Source of the DNA: a virus
IMG/VR virus record: IMGVR_UViG_3300021957_000066
Location: 1 to 47,026 of that record
DNA length: 47,026 bases
Direction: 5' to 3' (one strand)
The first letter of the stretch is position 1; each line of letters begins with the position of its first letter. Shown one piece after another: positions 3,001-24,386 of this stretch. The notes beneath the pieces were generated by a model. The model did no database searches. It saw only the letters and a list, made by a program, of their open reading frames with translations, and had not been told where the DNA came from. The position numbers and the translations under genes are program-made.

Positions 3001-6000
3001 AGATTATTGCTTGAGGATGAGAAAGTAGAGTTATCTATCAATGGCAATAACTTAAACAATAACAATAAAAAAGTTAAAGCTGCAACAAAAGCTATAGATG
3101 CCAGGCTAAAAGAAATTATAGCCAGAACCTACGATAATGCACAATACGCCAATACAAGTTGGATAAAGCATGAGCTTCCTGCAAAGGGCTTCAAGCTTAA
3201 TGGCATGGAAGTATTATTAACTGGTCATGCTCGACTATCTCCTGACGGAAAGCCTACAGGAGAAACCTCTGTAAATTACAAGATTGACTCAGATTTCAAT
3301 ATTTCTGGAAATGTTACCACTGGTGCAGGATTCCTGACAAGCTTGAAGTCGCAGCTAGAAGTTAAGCAAGAATTATTAAAGGCTGAAGGAAGCATTGCTA
3401 GATCTAAGAAAAAACTTTCTGCCGGAGAGGATTTCTTAAAATCAGAATTCTCAAAAGAAGCTGAGTTGGCTGAAAAGTATGAAAGACTTGACGAGTTATC
3501 TGAAGATCTTGAGGCTACTGCTGAAGATCAACTTGATGAGAGCGATGCTGTCATAGAAGAACCAACGACCACAAAAAAAGATGATGTGCCTAATCTTAAG
3601 CATTCTGGTAAAAGAAGCTTAAAAAAAGTATTTAGTCGAGTTGAGTCTGCCAATGATACATTCAATCAAGATCAGGTTTTATTTAGATCTGAAGGCTCTT
3701 ACTCTTCTCTTAGTGGTCGTGATAAAGCCAAAGCTCGGCAAATCGTTCAAAAGATGACTGGTACAGCTAATGTCGAATTTGCCAAAAAACTTTTCAACTC
3801 TGAAGGAAAAGAGGTTTTCGGTAAATATTCAAATGAGTTGATTCAAATATCTGAAGGAAAAGGAGACTTTGACAATACAGCTCGACATGAAGCCATGCAC
3901 CAAGTTTATGATAAACTCCTTACTTCTGCTGAAAAGAAAGTTTTTGATGAAGCAACAAAGCGTCTTGAACTAACTCATGAAGAAGCGATCGAGAAAGTAA
4001 ACGAATTTGCCAATACTCAAAAAGGAATCACTGGAATGCTACGAGCAATGGCAAAGAGAATGATTCGCAGACTAAAAAAGATTTTTGGAGCAGACAATCT
4101 AATTGACAAGATGAATGACATTTATGATCGTACTTTGTCTGGAGAATTAGCGAGCAGAGGTGAGACTGGAGCTTCAAACTATGGATGGGACAGTAATAGA
4201 TCATCTTTATACCGGGACAAGGTTCTTGGAGATACTACCAATAGGCAAGGAATTTCCGGTAAGACTAGATCCAAAAGAAAATTTTCTGACTTCATGGAAA
4301 ACCTTTACAAATATGTTCCTTTGGATAAGCTTCAAAACTGGGACTCCTCAAACAAGGATATTAGTTGGTTCAAATCTCACTTTATGACTCCATTCTGGCA
4401 AGCAAAGAAAGGCGGTAAAATAAAACAAGCTGTCGATGTTGCCACACAAAAAGATGAAGCCAGAATGCATATGATGATTGAATTAATGGAGGGAACTAGC
4501 AGTTACTCTTCTTTAAACGACATCGAGAGAGATCGTGTAGGAAAACTAATACTTGAAGGCGGAGCTCAAGAGAAGGAGTTCTCAGCGGGTGATCCTGAGT
4601 ATGATGCTTTAAGTGCATCTGAAAGATCGGGCTACTTGGCGATTCGTGAGGTTTACAATAAAGTTCGTGATAAGAAAGTTGCGGAGATGGAGGCTGATCT
4701 TGATATTATGAAAGGAGCTTTGAAGGTTGCTCAGGATAATCAAAAGGCTAAAACAGAACGAGAAGGCGAGTTGACTGAAGACTTCTTAGATGATTCTCTG
4801 ATTCCTGATTCGGCTATTGATGGTCCATCTGATATTGAAGCTAAGTTTGAAATAATAAAGCAGGATATAAAGGATCTTGAAGGAGCTATAAAAGGTCTAA
4901 AAGAGGAGAAAGGATATTTTTCTCGCATAAGAGATAATGGCAGACACTTACTCTACCACAAAGGCGTGAATGCAAAAACTGGAGATCCGCAGCTTTATCG
5001 AGTGGCTTTTGAAGATAGCGCTCGTGGTAGAAAAGAAATGGAAGCTCATTGGCAGAGAGAGTTGGCTGACGGTGCAGTTAGTTATTTCAGTACGCCACAA
5101 GGACAATTCAAGAAAGCCATGGTAAGTACTCAGGGAATGTCCGAAGTTATCGGGGCACAGATCCGTGAAAAATTTGACAAAAATTGGCGTGGTGCGGATA
5201 TTTCTGGACTTTATGGTGTGGATGCCGAGCTTGCTACAAGGTGGCAGGAAACGACTAGCAACATGACTCCTGATCCATCAAACATATCAAGTATTGAAGT
5301 CACCAGAGAACTTGTTGAAGATTTTTATGCTGATGGTCTTAATGAAGCCAAGACAGTCGGACTCATGCAAGAGTACTTTGGAGTCAATAGTGCTTCTGAA
5401 TTAGGTTTAGATAAGGAAGTTTTGCAGAAAATATTCTTCACTCGTGGACATCGTAAACATGAAATAGCCAGAGTCAAGAATCAAGAGGGAGAGCGAATTT
5501 ACGTATCAGGTTATAGTGAAGATATTGGTGAAGTCACAGCACAATATGCTCAGAGCTTCGTCAATTCCTCTGTGAAAGCTGAAGCAGCTCAGAGATACTA
5601 CAAAGTTGTCTCAACTCTGGATCCGCAAAATAAACCAAACGAATATTCAACGGTATTGGATTTTGTTCGAGAAGAGCTACGTCAAAAAGGAAAAGCAGAC
5701 GAAGTTTCTGGAAGAGTAGCTAATGCCATATTTGGCTTTTACATGGCAGGAAGAGTGAGTTCTGCTGCTGTCAACTTAACTCAGAACTATATGATCGGCA
5801 TACCGACTCTTATGGAGTACTTGACAAAAGCAGGAAAAAAAGTTAACCCTGGCACTTATCTAAAAATGCTTGCAAGTACAGCCAAGGCACAGAAAGATTC
5901 AGCTTTATTCCGAGTCGGTAAGAGAGCTACTTTATCTAATGATGAGTTTGTTTTTCTTCGTCCTATTCTCAATGAGGCCATGGAAGCTGCTAAAGTCAAA

Positions 6001-11724: not shown

Positions 11725-12167
11725 TAATTGAATTTAAAGTCTTTTTGAGCAAGGTCATAAATCCAACATGCGTCAGCGTGGTTGTCATCCACAGGCTGAA
11801 TATTAAGCTTCTCAATACAAGAACTAATCATTGCATCCTTATTTGAGTTTCCTTTGCCAGTTGCATGTTTTTTTATCTCGGACGCGGAATAGGCTTTATA
11901 CTCAATGTTCTCGTCATCTAAAAGAGACTTTAAAACACCATGCAATTCGGCTTGAACTATCAACGCTGCCTTATGATGACCTGCCGTTCTTTCAAAGACC
12001 ACAACGTCAGGACGATCAAGAGCAATGATCTCTTTAACCTTGGACTTGAATCTCATGAGCCTTAGTCCTCCAGACTCATCGCGTTTAATTGAAAAGTCCC
12101 AAGTTCCTCCTGCGAGGTTATTTCTCCAACCTGTTTTTGTTGCTACATCTAATGCCAGTATATTCAT
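11724..12167 (-). CDS. RuvC-like Holliday junction resolvase
   Basis: This 147-residue protein has the RuvC/RNase-H fold signature. The first catalytic Asp is in LALDVATKTGW (Asp7), a Glu ends strand 4 in VVVFE (Glu59), and the C-terminal helix carries HADA before the end. Length and motif order match phage RuvC-like resolvases, which cut branched DNA before packaging or during recombination. The start overlaps the upstream primase-helicase stop as ATGA. It sits in the replication unit with a Sak4-like recombinase and an SSB-like protein. Confidence 0.85.
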   Translation of the reverse strand: MNILALDVATKTGWRNNLAGGTWDFSIKRDESGGLRLMRFKSKVKEIIALDRPDVVVFERTAGHHKAALIVQAELHGVLKSLLDDENIEYKAYSASEIKKHATGKGNSNKDAMISSCIEKLNIQPVDDNHADACWIYDLAQKDFKFN

Positions 12168-14449
12168 GCTTTCTCCTTTACGATTGATTTTTCTATGGTT
12201 AATGTTGGGTGATTTTTTATGTACCTTCTCAGAGTTTTATCTGATACTCCTATGAGTTCGGCTAAAGTGGCTGAAGTGATAACCTCACCAGACTCTTGAC
12301 AAGCTCGAAACTCATTGCTTATGAGCTTGTTTCTATCATCTGTTTCTTTATCTTTTTTTTCTTTTTTATCCTTCTCTTTGGCTTCCTTTTCTTCCTCAGT
12401 TTGCTTTTTCCATGCAGGTTGAGATCCTTCTGCAAGTGCATCATCAAGCATGCCTTTTGTGTCTGGTCTGTGAACTGGATAATTAAAGAACATGTTACGA
12501 GGTTTGAAGCTTGGGAATTCTCGAAGAGTTCCTTCGATCCTCCATGCCGAAATACATTCAGCTCGTTGAATCGCTTGATTTATTATCGTTGGTAATTTTG
12601 CCGAGTCTCCGCCCAGTGCAGTCTCAGCATTCATTCTCATAAAGTTGGCGACCAATTGTTCATCCCCAGTGAGAGTATTTTCCCAGTTTGGATCAACTGT
12701 TCTCATATACTCTTTTATCGAGCTGCAAATAACTTCGTTCTCAATCATCTCCTTTGTTGGTTCGTTTATTGTCAGTGGGAGTAAATCAATAAGTGCGTCA
12801 GGATCTCTGGAAAAAACACCGGAGCCAGAAGATCGATCAGCAGACTTCTTATCGCCTTGAGTTCCTTTAGAGTGGTGGTGGCAACAAATCACTGAGGCTT
12901 TCAGCTCTGTGCAGACTTTATCGAATTGATTACAAAAATGCGCCATTTGGTCAGCAGAGTTTTCATCGCCAGTAATTACTTTGTAAATTGGGTCAATGAT
13001 AATGGCGCTATATCTTTTCTTAAGTGCTCTGCGAATAAGCTTAGGGGCAAGCTTGTCCATGGGAGCCGACTTACCACGTAAGTTCCAAATGTCGATATTG
13101 CTTATGTTGGGGTTCGTGATTTGAAATTTATCGTAGACTACTTTAAAGCGATTAAGACATGAAGGTCTATCAAGCTCTAAGTTGACATAGAGGACTTTAC
13201 CTTGTGCGCACTTAAACCCATTCCATACTCCACCTTCAGCAATTGCTATGCAGAGTTGAATCAAGCTCCAAGACTTACCCGCTTTTGATGGTCCGGCAAC
13301 AAGCATCTTATGCCCAACTCTCAGAAGACCATAAATTAATTCTGGAGCGAGTTCGGGTGGATTGTCCCAAGTGTCAGCAAGGCTTTCCATTTCTGGAAGG
13401 TCATCATTAATATCTTCAATCCACTCTTTCCATTCTTCCCAGTTTTCTTTACCCATGTTTGTATCAATTAGATACTGGGGTTTTCCTTTTCGCGTAATAC
13501 CTGGCATTCTTGAAAGTCTGGAAGGGTTTCTGTTTTGCTTGTCTATTGAAAAAGAATTTTTACGGCAAATCGAATAGAGGAAATCAACTCTCTTGCGGTA
13601 CTCTTCATATGTGGGTGCGTCAATCTTGACCAAAGCATGAAGCGACTTACCTCCACTGTGAACAAGTGTTGCTATCGGAAGTTCAAGTTCTTTGAGGATC
13701 GTGTACTGTTTTTCAATAGAAATTTCATCAGACTCGATCAGAGCATAGCGAAAGTCCTTAACGTTACTGTCATTAACTCCACATCCATCAAAAGGGTTTA
13801 CTCTTATCCATGCTCCGGCTTCTGGATTGTATGGTGAAAGGGGATCATTGCTGCTGCGGAGTATATCAATCATATCCTCTCTTGTGTGGCCGAAGATACC
13901 TGTTTTGGGCAAGAACTTATCTGGCGAATCTTCTGGAGAAAACGACTCCATTGTGTAAGCGACATATTCACCTTGCCTAAATAAGGTCAACAAGAAATTT
14001 ATTAGATCTGAGTTAGGTTTCCAATTTTCTGAACATGGTGGTACCGGAGTTTCACGAATCCAGTTTTGGTCAATGATCTGGTGTTCACCTTTACTTGAAC
14101 CTCCACCTATTTCACCATTCATGTCTAGGTCTTCGTCATCGTTGACCTTATCGAAATATTCACCAGTGCCAAAGTTAACGTTATGTCCTTGTTCCTTGGC
14201 AATCATAGCGAGAGTTGAGATTGATACACCTTTGCCACTACCGCGAAAACTTTTCCACTTGCGGTTACATTCGCCTTTTTCATACCTGTTGTCTGATTGG
14301 CTCCAAGTATCCCAGTCACTTGCTTGTAAGCCGACTGACTCAAGTGCCATTCCTACATTCAGCCAGTTTTCATAGTCGAGTGATGATGGGTCGATAAGGT
14401 CAAGTAGTTTTAATGCTTCTTCTTTTTTAGTCAAAATGATGTTATCCAT
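12164..14449 (-). CDS. Phage primase-helicase (PriCT-2 plus RepA/AAA_25-type ATPase plus HTH)
   Basis: The product has 761 residues. Residues about 5-90 (LDYENWLNVGMALE ... SISTLAMIAKEQGH) resemble PriCT-2, a domain attached to primases. About 200-340 look like a primase/replicase-type region (VHSGGKSLHALVKID; PSRLSRMPG). A RecA-like ATPase follows: Walker A AGPSKAGKS at 385-393, Walker B IIIDPIY, then a His-rich motif ICCHHHSKG, as in hexameric RepA/AAA_25 helicases. The C-terminus is highly charged (Lys/Glu-rich) and ends in an HTH-like segment (TLAELIGVSDKTLRRYI). It likely primes and unwinds phage DNA. It overlaps the SF2 helicase gene upstream by 19 bases. A catalytic primase centre was not identified with confidence. 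Confidence 0.8.
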   Translation of the reverse strand: MDNIILTKKEEALKLLDLIDPSSLDYENWLNVGMALESVGLQASDWDTWSQSDNRYEKGECNRKWKSFRGSGKGVSISTLAMIAKEQGHNVNFGTGEYFDKVNDDEDLDMNGEIGGGSSKGEHQIIDQNWIRETPVPPCSENWKPNSDLINFLLTLFRQGEYVAYTMESFSPEDSPDKFLPKTGIFGHTREDMIDILRSSNDPLSPYNPEAGAWIRVNPFDGCGVNDSNVKDFRYALIESDEISIEKQYTILKELELPIATLVHSGGKSLHALVKIDAPTYEEYRKRVDFLYSICRKNSFSIDKQNRNPSRLSRMPGITRKGKPQYLIDTNMGKENWEEWKEWIEDINDDLPEMESLADTWDNPPELAPELIYGLLRVGHKMLVAGPSKAGKSWSLIQLCIAIAEGGVWNGFKCAQGKVLYVNLELDRPSCLNRFKVVYDKFQITNPNISNIDIWNLRGKSAPMDKLAPKLIRRALKKRYSAIIIDPIYKVITGDENSADQMAHFCNQFDKVCTELKASVICCHHHSKGTQGDKKSADRSSGSGVFSRDPDALIDLLPLTINEPTKEMIENEVICSSIKEYMRTVDPNWENTLTGDEQLVANFMRMNAETALGGDSAKLPTIINQAIQRAECISAWRIEGTLREFPSFKPRNMFFNYPVHRPDTKGMLDDALAEGSQPAWKKQTEEEKEAKEKDKKEKKDKETDDRNKLISNEFRACQESGEVITSATLAELIGVSDKTLRRYIKNHPTLTIEKSIVKEKA

Positions 14450-21520: not shown

Positions 21521-22006
21521 ATGTTGACTAGGGTTACAGAAGATTTTAAAGCCGCCATACAGCAATGGCTAACTGAAGAGCAACTGACTCTTCGCGAAGC
21601 AGGGAAATTAATAGGGACAAGTCATGGAAGTATTGGGAATGTTTTGACGGGCATGACTAAAACAATAAGGCCTAAGTTGATGATGGCTCTTGAGCCTTAT
21701 ATTAATAAATACAGAGATCCAGAAGAGCTTCAAAAATCAATGAAAAGAAAAACATCTACATTTACTGACCAGACTGCTGCGCACTGTCGAATGGATGTGA
21801 ATATCATAAGCAACATTCAAAAATATAAAGATGACAATAAATTATCTTATGAAGACATGAGGAATAAATTCAACATACCTATTATAAAGCTCGCTGAGTG
21901 GATGGAGGCCGACTACTCGGAAGAAGATTTTTTTACACTAAGCGCAAATGACTTTCCTATATTCGCTGCATTTGTTTCTCAAGTGCTGAGTGAACAGTTT
22001 GTGTGA
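21521..22006 (+). CDS. HTH regulator of the integrase operon
   Basis: This 161-residue protein has an N-terminal helix-turn-helix (about 10-45: QQWLTEEQLTLREAGKLIGT then HGSIGNVLTG) and a second HTH-like segment at about 100-130 (LSYEDMRNKFNIPIIKLAEW). It has no peptidase or oligomerisation domain that I can recognise, so it is not a LexA-type repressor. It is transcribed from the strong promoter at 21428 and overlaps the integrase start by GTGA. Plausible roles are lysogeny repressor or excision/integration regulator; the switch layout favours repressor. Confidence 0.7.
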   Translation: MLTRVTEDFKAAIQQWLTEEQLTLREAGKLIGTSHGSIGNVLTGMTKTIRPKLMMALEPYINKYRDPEELQKSMKRKTSTFTDQTAAHCRMDVNIISNIQKYKDDNKLSYEDMRNKFNIPIIKLAEWMEADYSEEDFFTLSANDFPIFAAFVSQVLSEQFV

Positions 22007-23475
22007 GAAAGAAACCAAGGCTTAATTTAGAAAAAGGGCGAAGCAAGTACTCCTTCCACATCTATAACGTGGATGGAAAACGAAAGCAAGTTATGACTGG
22101 CGAGTCAGATAGGGACATTGCTCAGTCTTTGATTGATGAGTATACGCGAATAGTAGGTTTGAGCCAAGATGATGATATTGCCTTGGCTGTTGATGAGCGA
22201 ATATACAAGGCTTATTTCAATAAAGAAAAATCAAAGATTACTCTTAAGACAAATCTTACTGAAGAAATTTTCACGAAAAAAGAAATTATTGCATTAGATA
22301 AAATTCTCGATGTCGTTGAAGGCATAGACGAAAGTCTGGCAGAAACTTTTACTAGAATCATGGTGAAGATCCCTAAACTCCTGGTCAGCCACGATGAACG
22401 CGGAAAGACAATTCAGAAGCTCATTGAAGAGGTTAAGGGGTATGAAGACCTTAAGCGCTCAGTAATAGCCAAGCAGATCAATGCAGCCAATGACACAGGC
22501 ACTCTTTCCGAGTGTATTGATAAGTTCGAGTTAGAGTATCGAGATACAGTTTCTTATAGCACTTGCGTTGATATATTATCAATGAATAGAAGATTCGCAA
22601 AAAAAATTCCAGACGACATTTCTCCGGCAGAAGTCAGCAAGGCACAGATCAAAGACTTTATCATGGAGCTTGCAAAAAAATCTCCGGATCCAGAATACCG
22701 AAAAAAAAGAGTTCGTTCAATGCTCTCAGTATTTTTTACATGGGCTGCTGATCGGTACGAGTTCCAGAATCCCATTACAGGCCTAGTTCTCCTTAAGAAA
22801 AAAATTACCAAGAAGAAAAAAATAATCTGGCATGATCTAAATGTCATCGAGGACATGTTATTGGGTCTTGACTCTTACTGGAGCGCGATCGTTGCGACAA
22901 TGGCCTATGCCGGGATCGGTTTAAAAGAATTATCAGGCATTCGTGTGGATGACTTCACAAAAGCGACTAAGCAGATCAACGACCAAAAAGCGGAAGTTTA
23001 TTTTCTGAAAATCGAATGGCATGATGAACGAGGACTTAAAACGAAAAATAGAAGCGATTCTGTGCCAGTGGATGCTAAGTATTTACTTCCACATTTGCTC
23101 AAGTTTATTGAAGATGGTCATGTTGGAGAAAAATATTTTTTCGCGAAACCCAACTCCAAAAAAGAGCTGTGGACCAATGATGCTCTTTCACGAAAGCTGA
23201 ATGGCAGAAGGTATAGCCATGAAGGAAAAAAAGATACTTTCACAAAGCCTATACTGGCTAATAAAATAAAGGCTCGTGATCTTCGCCATACTTTTGGATC
23301 TCTACTGATTCGGAATGGTTATAGCATTGATGAGGCTTGCGCTCTGACAAGAAATAAGCGAGAAGTCTTTATGGAGCATTACGGCCACCTAACAGCGAAG
23401 GAGCTGCATGTTACTCTGTCAGGTGATGAAGCAAAAGTGAAGTATATCGATGAAGCGGTAATTGTACGCCAGTAG
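22003..23475 (+). CDS. Tyrosine recombinase / phage integrase with atypical catalytic residues
   Basis: The product has 490 residues from GTG 22003, whose codon overlaps the HTH stop. The N-terminal ~150 residues are a long arm-binding type region; a core-binding domain spans about 165-275. The catalytic domain has AGIGLKELSGIR, where Lys308 sits at the usual first Arg; a beta-hairpin TKNRSDSVPV with the expected Lys; and ARDLRHTFGS, where Arg425 replaces the usual His before Arg428. LTR (448-450) stands at the LGH position and EHYGHLT carries the likely nucleophile Tyr460. Fold and Tyr are clear, but three of six catalytic positions differ. Repeats just downstream are probable binding sites. 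Confidence 0.85.
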   Translation: MRKKPRLNLEKGRSKYSFHIYNVDGKRKQVMTGESDRDIAQSLIDEYTRIVGLSQDDDIALAVDERIYKAYFNKEKSKITLKTNLTEEIFTKKEIIALDKILDVVEGIDESLAETFTRIMVKIPKLLVSHDERGKTIQKLIEEVKGYEDLKRSVIAKQINAANDTGTLSECIDKFELEYRDTVSYSTCVDILSMNRRFAKKIPDDISPAEVSKAQIKDFIMELAKKSPDPEYRKKRVRSMLSVFFTWAADRYEFQNPITGLVLLKKKITKKKKIIWHDLNVIEDMLLGLDSYWSAIVATMAYAGIGLKELSGIRVDDFTKATKQINDQKAEVYFLKIEWHDERGLKTKNRSDSVPVDAKYLLPHLLKFIEDGHVGEKYFFAKPNSKKELWTNDALSRKLNGRRYSHEGKKDTFTKPILANKIKARDLRHTFGSLLIRNGYSIDEACALTRNKREVFMEHYGHLTAKELHVTLSGDEAKVKYIDEAVIVRQ

Positions 23476-23701
23476 TCACTCTTTTTGTACGCATTCTGTA
23501 CGCATAATCATACACTATATTCGTAAGTGTTTCTCTATTAACGATGTCACAAAGCCTTTCTAACTGTCGTCCCACCATTAAAATATAATCATAATACATT
23601 ATAGATTAATTATTTATGACTATATTCATCTTTTGACTGTACGCGTCTTTGTACGCCTTCTTGCGTACACTTTGTGCTTAAACTGTACGCATTCTGTACG
23701 C
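23463..23701 (+). repeat. Phased TGTACGC repeat array next to the integrase
   Basis: Copies of TGTACGC start at 23463, 23486, 23497, 23638, 23650, 23684 and 23695, with one inverted copy (GCGTACA) at 23663-23669; another is at 23934. Neighbours in a cluster are 11-13 bases apart, about one helical turn. The 18-base unit TGTACGCATTCTGTACGC occurs exactly at 23486-23503 and 23684-23701. Position and phasing fit integrase arm-type sites on both sides of an attP core; replication iterons are an alternative. Confidence 0.7.
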
Positions 23702-24080
23702 TCTCAGTGAGCATTAGCTTTTCTAGTGATCTGAAATCCTCTAACTTTAATACTTCCATGTGATCTTCCCTTTATTTACTTTTTTTACTCACCCTAGTAT
23801 AACAGGGGGTAGGGGACATTTATGTTACCTCCGACTAACTATTATTTATTAGATGGTATTTTTTTTGTTTATCCAATTCAATAATGATGTTTTTTTGAAT
23901 TTATAGTTTCACTTGATGGTTTGCAAAAACGTGTGTACGCGGTACATTCGATTACAACATGTTTAAACTTGTAAAGTTTGCATGTGTAAATTTTTTGAAG
24001 TATTTTAACATAAAGACATACTCTTATTTTTGCCGAAGATGTGGCATGGATAATGAGAATATAAATAGGAAATTGGAAAA
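23476..24080. other. Non-coding region holding the repeat array and candidate attP
   Basis: No credible gene is seen in these 605 bases. It holds the TGTACGC array, a candidate core at 23512, an inverted repeat TATAAT/ATTATA (23584-23589, 23598-23603), a G-rich patch near 23805-23817, ATTCAA/TTGAAT (23876-23881, 23895-23900), TATAGTTT (23902), and AAACTT/AAGTTT (23965-23970, 23974-23979). The stretch 23710-23870 is AT-rich without clear sites. Confidence 0.6.
23512..23530. other. Candidate attP core
   Basis: ACACT (23512-23516) and AGTGT (23526-23530) are inverted arms around a 9-base spacer, between the two TGTACGC clusters (23463-23503 and 23638-23701). This matches the layout core site between arm sites. 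No host att sequence is available, so this is a guess on position and symmetry only. Confidence 0.35.
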
Positions 24081-24386
24081 ATGGGAGATAGTTATGAAGA
24101 ACTTGTCAAAACCCAAGTCAGAGAAATATCAGAAGCCATTAAAGGACATAAGGGAAGAACGCTCACAGAAGAAGATGCTGCCGCTATCTGCAAGAGTATC
24201 ACTGATCTCGGAGAGCTTTCAATTGAAACTCAAAATGAAACATCAGCAAAATATGACGAAATTGGAAAAGATATCTCAAAGCTTAAAAAATCCTTAAATG
24301 CTGCAACTCACGACAAAAACGTGTATCTTGATCAGCTGATTGAAGCTCAGTTTGAAATAATCGAGCTAAAGCTATTGCATAGTTAA
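24081..24386 (+). CDS. Hypothetical helical protein
   Basis: This 101-residue acidic protein begins MGDSYEELVKTQVREISEAI and is almost wholly helical with heptad-like spacing. AGGAAATTGG precedes ATG 24081 and a strong terminator follows, so it is a monocistronic unit. A longer overlapping frame from 23959 exists but its product is basic and irregular; the chosen frame ends nearer the terminator. No family recognised. Its place between attP-like DNA and the early cassette suggests a small regulator or excisionase-like factor, but no winged-helix is visible. Confidence 0.6.
   Translation: MGDSYEELVKTQVREISEAIKGHKGRTLTEEDAAAICKSITDLGELSIETQNETSAKYDEIGKDISKLKKSLNAATHDKNVYLDQLIEAQFEIIELKLLHS

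Follow-up and report, generated by a model that had tools for sequence, protein, structure and literature searches.

A TGTACGC array adjoining a tyrosine integrase gene as the probable attP of an IMG/VR virus

As seen in Table 1, nine copies of the heptamer TGTACGC are gathered at the end of a tyrosine integrase gene (int) in the window, which is the whole stretch of 47,026 nucleotides of an IMG/VR virus record. Judged from sequence comparison, the DNA between the int end and about position 23701, or perhaps 23940, is very probably the attP of the adjacent integrase, with TGTACGC as its arm sites. A tyrosine integrase gene adjoins the site, and repeats are placed on both sides of a core (three copies, five copies and one outlier), the core being located by analogy only. 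Support for the attP reading comes from the layout of the nearest relative, L004, from the 24 comparable arrays among the matches listed, of which 15 lie just 3' of an integrase, and from the joint change of word and integrase N-terminus in an integrase family gathered by protein, the L008 family. These comparisons favour the arm sites flanking a core that an earlier note on this DNA had proposed. What is odd about the array is that it has as many as nine sites, one of them inverted and one outlying, and that its integrase is altered in catalytic residues.

Table 1. Coordinates of TGTACGC words and associated features in the window.
Feature	Position	Strand	Basis
Tyrosine integrase, 490 aa, GTG start	22003..23475	+	PHROG, Foldseek
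TGTACGC copies of the array	23463, 23486, 23497, 23638, 23650, 23663 (inverted), 23684, 23695, 23934		
Putative int-proximal arm cluster (TGTACGC at 23463, 23486, 23497)	23463..23503	+	word positions
Candidate core region between the two clusters	23504..23637	.	analogy with L004 and other families
Putative int-distal arm cluster (TGTACGC at 23638, 23650, 23684, 23695; inverted one at 23663)	23638..23701	+	word positions
Inverted TGTACGC of the distal cluster	23663..23669	-	word position
Outlying ninth TGTACGC, 239 b past the distal cluster	23934..23940	+	assigned by word only
Tenth TGTACGC, outside the array	11681	-	

The array is genuine and strongly non-random. With both strands counted, the whole record holds 10 exact copies of TGTACGC against an expectation of 1.62, and 10 or more copies were reached in none of 100 dinucleotide shuffles. 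Nine of the 10 copies, one of them inverted, fall within 23463-23940, and the word is therefore not equally frequent elsewhere in the record. Their exact positions agree with the earlier description of nine copies beginning in the last integrase codons; the first copy lies inside these codons, with the int stop at 23473-23475. Start-to-start steps between the nine copies are 23, 11, 141, 12, 13, 21, 11 and 239 b. The spacing of 11-13 b that had been claimed for neighbours was found in four of the six within-cluster steps, and the other two, 23 and 21 b, correspond to about two turns. Phasing within clusters is thus by one or two turns, not 11-13 b throughout. The 18-base unit said to occur twice, TGTACGCATTCTGTACGC, was recovered exactly two times, at 23486 and 23684, 198 b apart.

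The number of copies in the array exceeds chance, as the earlier note had held. Of all 7-mers in the window, TGTACGC clusters most tightly, with 9 non-overlapping copies in 600 b, followed by AAAAAAT with 6; the best other word with at least four G+C reaches 5. Among 60 order-2 Markov genomes of equal length, the best 7-mer with at least three different letters reached 4 copies (41 genomes), 5 copies (15) or 6 copies (4). No one-mismatch copy exists in 23201-24200 besides the nine exact ones, so the array word is sharp. Only the seven bases are common to the array copies, and their flanks vary. The two ends of the 47,026-b record have no exact direct repeat of 10-200 b in common.

The product of the adjoining gene matches the PHROG integrase family phrog_1 (E 1.9e-27); a Pfam search with this protein gave no match, and PDB sequence searches gave 0 matches with A1 and 39 with A2. 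A structure model from a two-row alignment was not usable (pLDDT 35), and the model from an 11-row alignment has a mean pLDDT of 64; its core-binding part is well modelled, whereas residues 1-44 and 46-88 stay under 50. In Foldseek comparisons against the PDB, the latter model matched tyrosine recombinases with a best E of 2.2e-7 and low TM-scores by query length (0.25-0.37), among them XerA, Tn1549 Int and lambda Int. The predicted parts are an N-terminal unit of two strands and a helix, at low pLDDT, followed by core-binding and catalytic parts.

Y460, R428 and H429 are invariant across the 11 aligned integrases (the window integrase and ten others), Y460 being the nucleophilic Tyr and R428 Arg II. 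In the column of Arg I and the columns of the two catalytic His, the window integrase has G306, R425 and R450, and L004 is alike. The fold, the nucleophilic Tyr and Arg II of tyrosine recombinases are thus present, and the full catalytic set (Arg I and two His) is not. The full set is not taken here as defining tyrosine recombinases, since the integrase of locus L046 likewise has no Arg I. Without Arg I and both catalytic His, the activity of the window integrase is not assured. Upstream, a 161-aa ORF (21521-22006) runs 4 b into int, over its GTG start; it has no Pfam or PHROG match and is a possible regulator.

Related integrases in IMG/VR were found in two contigs. In the twin contig (L003/L040) the array is unchanged, and the five differences in 22003-24080 all lie within int. 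The second contig, L004 (7,458 b), encodes an integrase 58% identical to that of the window and contains no TGTACGC. Five exact copies of TGTGCCC exist in it instead, at 5220, 5265, 5420, 5453 and 5464 and nowhere else in the locus, with one-mismatch copies at 5254 and 5407. This array (5220-5470) is situated 3' of int, past one inserted ORF. The first two exact copies are separated from the last three by a perfect tRNA T-arm, GCGCG TTCGAAT CGCGC (5341-5357), which is followed by an acceptor-like end; Rfam gives only a weak partial match to tmRNA at the T-arm (E 0.16). Comparison of L004 with the window therefore indicates a layout that is kept and a word that differs at two of seven bases.

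Viral contigs were scanned for TGTACGCN4TGTACGC, giving at least 119 stretches, and the backward-read word CGCATGT served as control with 100 stretches. Single pairs mean little, as 14 fixed bases must recur by chance in such a collection. Among the 119 matches listed, 24 hold at least four TGTACGC in 600 b and 14 hold at least five. The control gave four copies in 600 b in 3 of 100 stretches, five or more in none, and an integrase in none of those three. The profile used to look for integrases drew on eight proteins, of which six came from word-scan loci, each confirmed by Pfam and PHROGs. An integrase was found with 15 of the 24 arrays among the matches listed, without exception upstream of the nearest pair, at a distance of 4-322 b; these 15 include the window's twin and form 11 groups once loci sharing 200 identical bases are merged. 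Pairs within 1 kb of an integrase number 17 among the 119 matches listed, compared with 2 of 100 for the control, one of which (L217) lies 250 b 3' of int and the other inside the integrase ORF. The word takes either direction relative to int among the loci. With L004 set apart, the integrases aligned with that of the window are 11-19% identical to it. The integrases of L014 (2342-4105), L021 (3442-5208) and L109 (3896-5677) are about 590 aa long with a C-terminal HNH endonuclease-like part, and have two Arm-DNA-bind_4-like stretches, the better of which is C-terminal in L014 and L109.

As the loci were found by searching for TGTACGC, its conservation cannot be inferred from them. Relatives of the L008 integrase, 11-12% identical to the window integrase, were gathered by protein and not by word, giving 17 loci, of which 16 were analysed (L284 is truncated). 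In all 16 loci, two pairs of one word are placed 3' of int with a T-arm-like hairpin between them. Spacing within pairs is 11 b, and the pairs are 201 b apart in 15 loci and 183 b apart in L285; the first site lies 6-17 b past the coding end in 15 loci and about 66 b past it in L285. TGTACGC is present, on the other strand, in 6 of the 16, all of which share sequence with word-scan loci. The other ten carry TGGTGCC (2), TGTCCAC (3), TGTCCGC (3), TGTGTACAA (1) or GCGGAACAT (1), and in each of these ten the word is changed at all four sites.

If arm sites are read by the integrase N-terminus, word and N-terminus should change together. Fifteen integrases of the L008 family were aligned, L284 and L270 (100% identical to the query, like L269) being left out, and identities were averaged over 14 with L285 excluded. 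For the 17 same-word pairs, mean identity is 95% over residues 1-70, with no pair under 89%, and 98% over residues 71-355. The 74 different-word pairs average 70% (at most 81%) and 91% in the same two parts; in neither set are the pairs independent. Among relatives of a 587-aa integrase (8 found, 7 analysed, L296 being truncated), all seven loci hold 4-7 TGTACGC each; only L291 is new, since six share sequence with word-scan loci. The L073 family gave three loci: L286, which is identical with L073 and carries TGTACGC, L288, with pairs of GGTGCCG, and L287, with only a weak repeat. The idea of TGTACGC as an ancient conserved arm word was rejected as an inference, since the loci had been sought by word and closely related integrases are accompanied by other words. 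Recurrence of TGTACGC beside unrelated integrases is probably convergence, which is the simpler account because words change fast within a family, the collection is very large and the loci were sought by word.

The stretch between the clusters was compared in 11 regions. A perfect T-arm hairpin exists there in eight (L004, L008, L043, L064, L089, L112, L046 and L107) and in none of L073, L014 and the window. The term T-arm rests on the hairpin pattern, as neither the window nor ten loci gave a whole tRNA with ARAGORN. Rfam gave a tRNA match under the cut-off for L046 (24.1 bits against 29) along with other weak families, no match for L008 or for the window array, and none at gathering cut-offs in seven sources. 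In L021, L082 and L109 a gene with a SEC-C motif (CGSGKKYK..CCGR. stop) has its 3' end in the gap. A strict search for this pattern had no match in L014, L056 and L100; in L240, the seventh region examined for it, the motif is present with only one cluster. In the window gap, neither a T-arm hairpin nor a protein-gene 3' end of the SEC-C type was seen. Cores of attP usually carry gene 3' ends, and cases of tRNA gene 3' ends are given in excerpts of PMC8074189 and PMC3203893.

Binding of the repeats by an excisionase (recombination directionality factor), and not by the integrase, is an improbable account. It is a real rival, as factors of this class likewise bind direct repeats about one helical turn apart: at the att of phage 186, the Apl protein binds a set of five, spaced by 10-11 bp, according to an excerpt of PMC7498355. 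In the window, however, the sites flank the inferred core on both sides and begin within int, and the excisionase account does not predict the link between word and integrase N-terminal domain found in the L008 family.

Less probable still is an array of operators for a phage or host DNA-binding protein controlling int or the rightward genes, with the integration sites elsewhere. Other proteins may use TGTACGC, as 9 of the 24 arrays among the matches listed had no integrase found by the profile (L016, L060, L067, L101, L106, L108, L110, L113 and L119), and 23 copies of TGTACGCN4TGTACGC are scattered in one Rhodobacteraceae genome, with 0 of the backward-read control. The word alone is therefore no proof of an arm site. 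Against operators, two clusters surround a gap just 3' of int in the window, as in families that carry a tRNA-like or gene 3' end in the gap.

Several loci of this kind have features of their own. L067, L101 and L108 hold 8 TGTACGC within 600 b with no integrase found; in L067 and L108 the words form two facing groups, and L067 and L101 add TGTACAC-like repeats. The array of L113 (9880-10500) is part of a tandem 11-b repeat (acatatagcca-like), four units of which read GCGTACA. In the Rhodobacteraceae genome (G002, uncultured, 4.5 Mb; L247-L266), 20 of the 23 copies were read and have a common context like tgtacatacaggttcTGTACGCnntcTGTACGCnnnncatat; this element is perhaps a promoter element or operator. 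A similar stretch in similar flanks exists in two Octadecabacter contigs (L232 and L241).

Replication iterons, which the earlier note had offered as a second role, or a partition site of a plasmid-like phage, resemble the array in form only, by the number and phasing of direct repeats; this account is scarcely tenable, no evidence for it having been found, as the array abuts int about 9 kb from the primase-helicase gene (12164-14449), no replication initiator gene stands beside it among the annotated ORFs, and among the matches listed 15 of the 24 comparable arrays are situated 3' of int, several of them with a tRNA-like or protein-gene 3' end between their clusters.

For the attP reading, the core and a host site were also sought in other genomes, and neither attB nor a host was found. 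An 18-mer of the window core was found in the twin contig only, and two short peptide patterns gave no relatives of the window integrase in genome contigs. The integrase profile, in a search without positive control, had no match in 290, 398 and 296 genomes of three phyla. A plasmid BLAST gave 16 records with a best E of 0.4. Core DNA gave 3 matches in the 398 genomes, spread over 2 small ones and with a best E of 1.1e-5; all fall at query 79-129, the AT-rich part, and they were set aside. Terminase relatives in phages name no host, as they are below 60% identity and their hosts are many and different. A scan of genome contigs for lysogens with TGTACGCATTYTGTACGC gave 15 stretches, and the profile found no integrase near them. 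In an Oscillospiraceae MAG contig (L240:4233-4960) a 3' stub of a SEC-C gene adjoins a TGTACGC pair. By its sequence this looks like one junction of an integrated element; an L014-like integrase was not found in that genome.

The layout of the window array is of a known kind. Its possible status as a distinct attP architecture, raised in the earlier note, was not upheld, since phased pairs beside int exist in other families and in Cluster K mycobacteriophages, similar layouts being already in print (excerpts of PMC3203893). Eight phage records were fetched by integrase similarity, picked from the match lists for variety. A TGTACGC array is absent from all eight, with a single copy in two of them, and an arrangement of another word in two clusters is clear in Idris, MD8 and MT835537, partial in MT835551, phiHugo and Tadhana, and not seen in Dulem virus 33 and Aster.

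Sites on both arms are known for lambda attP. Like the lambda type and other arm-binding-domain tyrosine recombinases, as outlined in an excerpt of PMC8138268, the window integrase has N-terminal, core-binding and catalytic parts and sites on both arms; unlike them, it has no counterpart of three canonical catalytic residues. In the excerpts of PMC3203893, Cluster K1 mycobacteriophages have pairs of 11-bp repeats flanking the attP core, and in Pixie three repeats face a pair that is joined by an inverted extra across the core. Changes of the K1 repeat consensus accompany integrase N-terminal substitutions at positions 17 and 19. The window resembles Cluster K in having repeated sites on both sides of the inferred core and, like Pixie, an inverted extra. 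Cluster K cores match a known attB and those of K1 lie 5' of int, whereas in the window the array, with nine copies, is 3' of int and an attB was not found. In the excerpt of PMC8074189, the attP sites of Oenococcus IntF/IntB have 10-bp direct repeats, two and four per arm, with the core at a tRNA-Leu 3' end, and the changes among these integrases are concentrated in the first 66 residues. Unlike the window, the Oenococcus repeat is ATTTGCACAA, its copies are fewer, and attL/attR are known from lysogens. The excerpt of PMC6109161 holds nothing on such sites. In two papers on TGTACGC with an integrase, the word is found within primers only, and its newness as an arm word is not claimed here.

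If the region is attP, the integrase N-terminal domain would bind TGTACGC, one molecule per site. Pairs of sites one turn apart, on the same DNA face, could hold neighbouring integrase subunits, and a few integrases would bridge the high-affinity arms to weak core sites. The DNA would be bent, probably with host factors, and the bent complex may bring the core to attB, where the core would recombine with the host site.

An attP is thereby probably placed for a virus with few known relatives, together with a clean set of putative arm sites for an odd integrase. In the L008 family, switching of arm words at four equally spaced sites along with the N-terminus makes an arm-recognition code testable with natural pairs, and could help build orthogonal integrases. 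The same idea was proposed earlier for Cluster K1 phages on fewer changes (excerpts of PMC3203893). It is tentatively suggested, at a little less than even confidence, that arm words serve as a modular address that switches fast: among closely related integrases, every arm site would change in step with the N-terminal strands, while spacing, core and catalytic part would stay. The difference between the window and L004 (TGTACGC/TGTGCCC) would be one such switch, in an integrase working without Arg I and two His. If this is true, the recognition code of the N-terminal domains would be readable from sequence alone.
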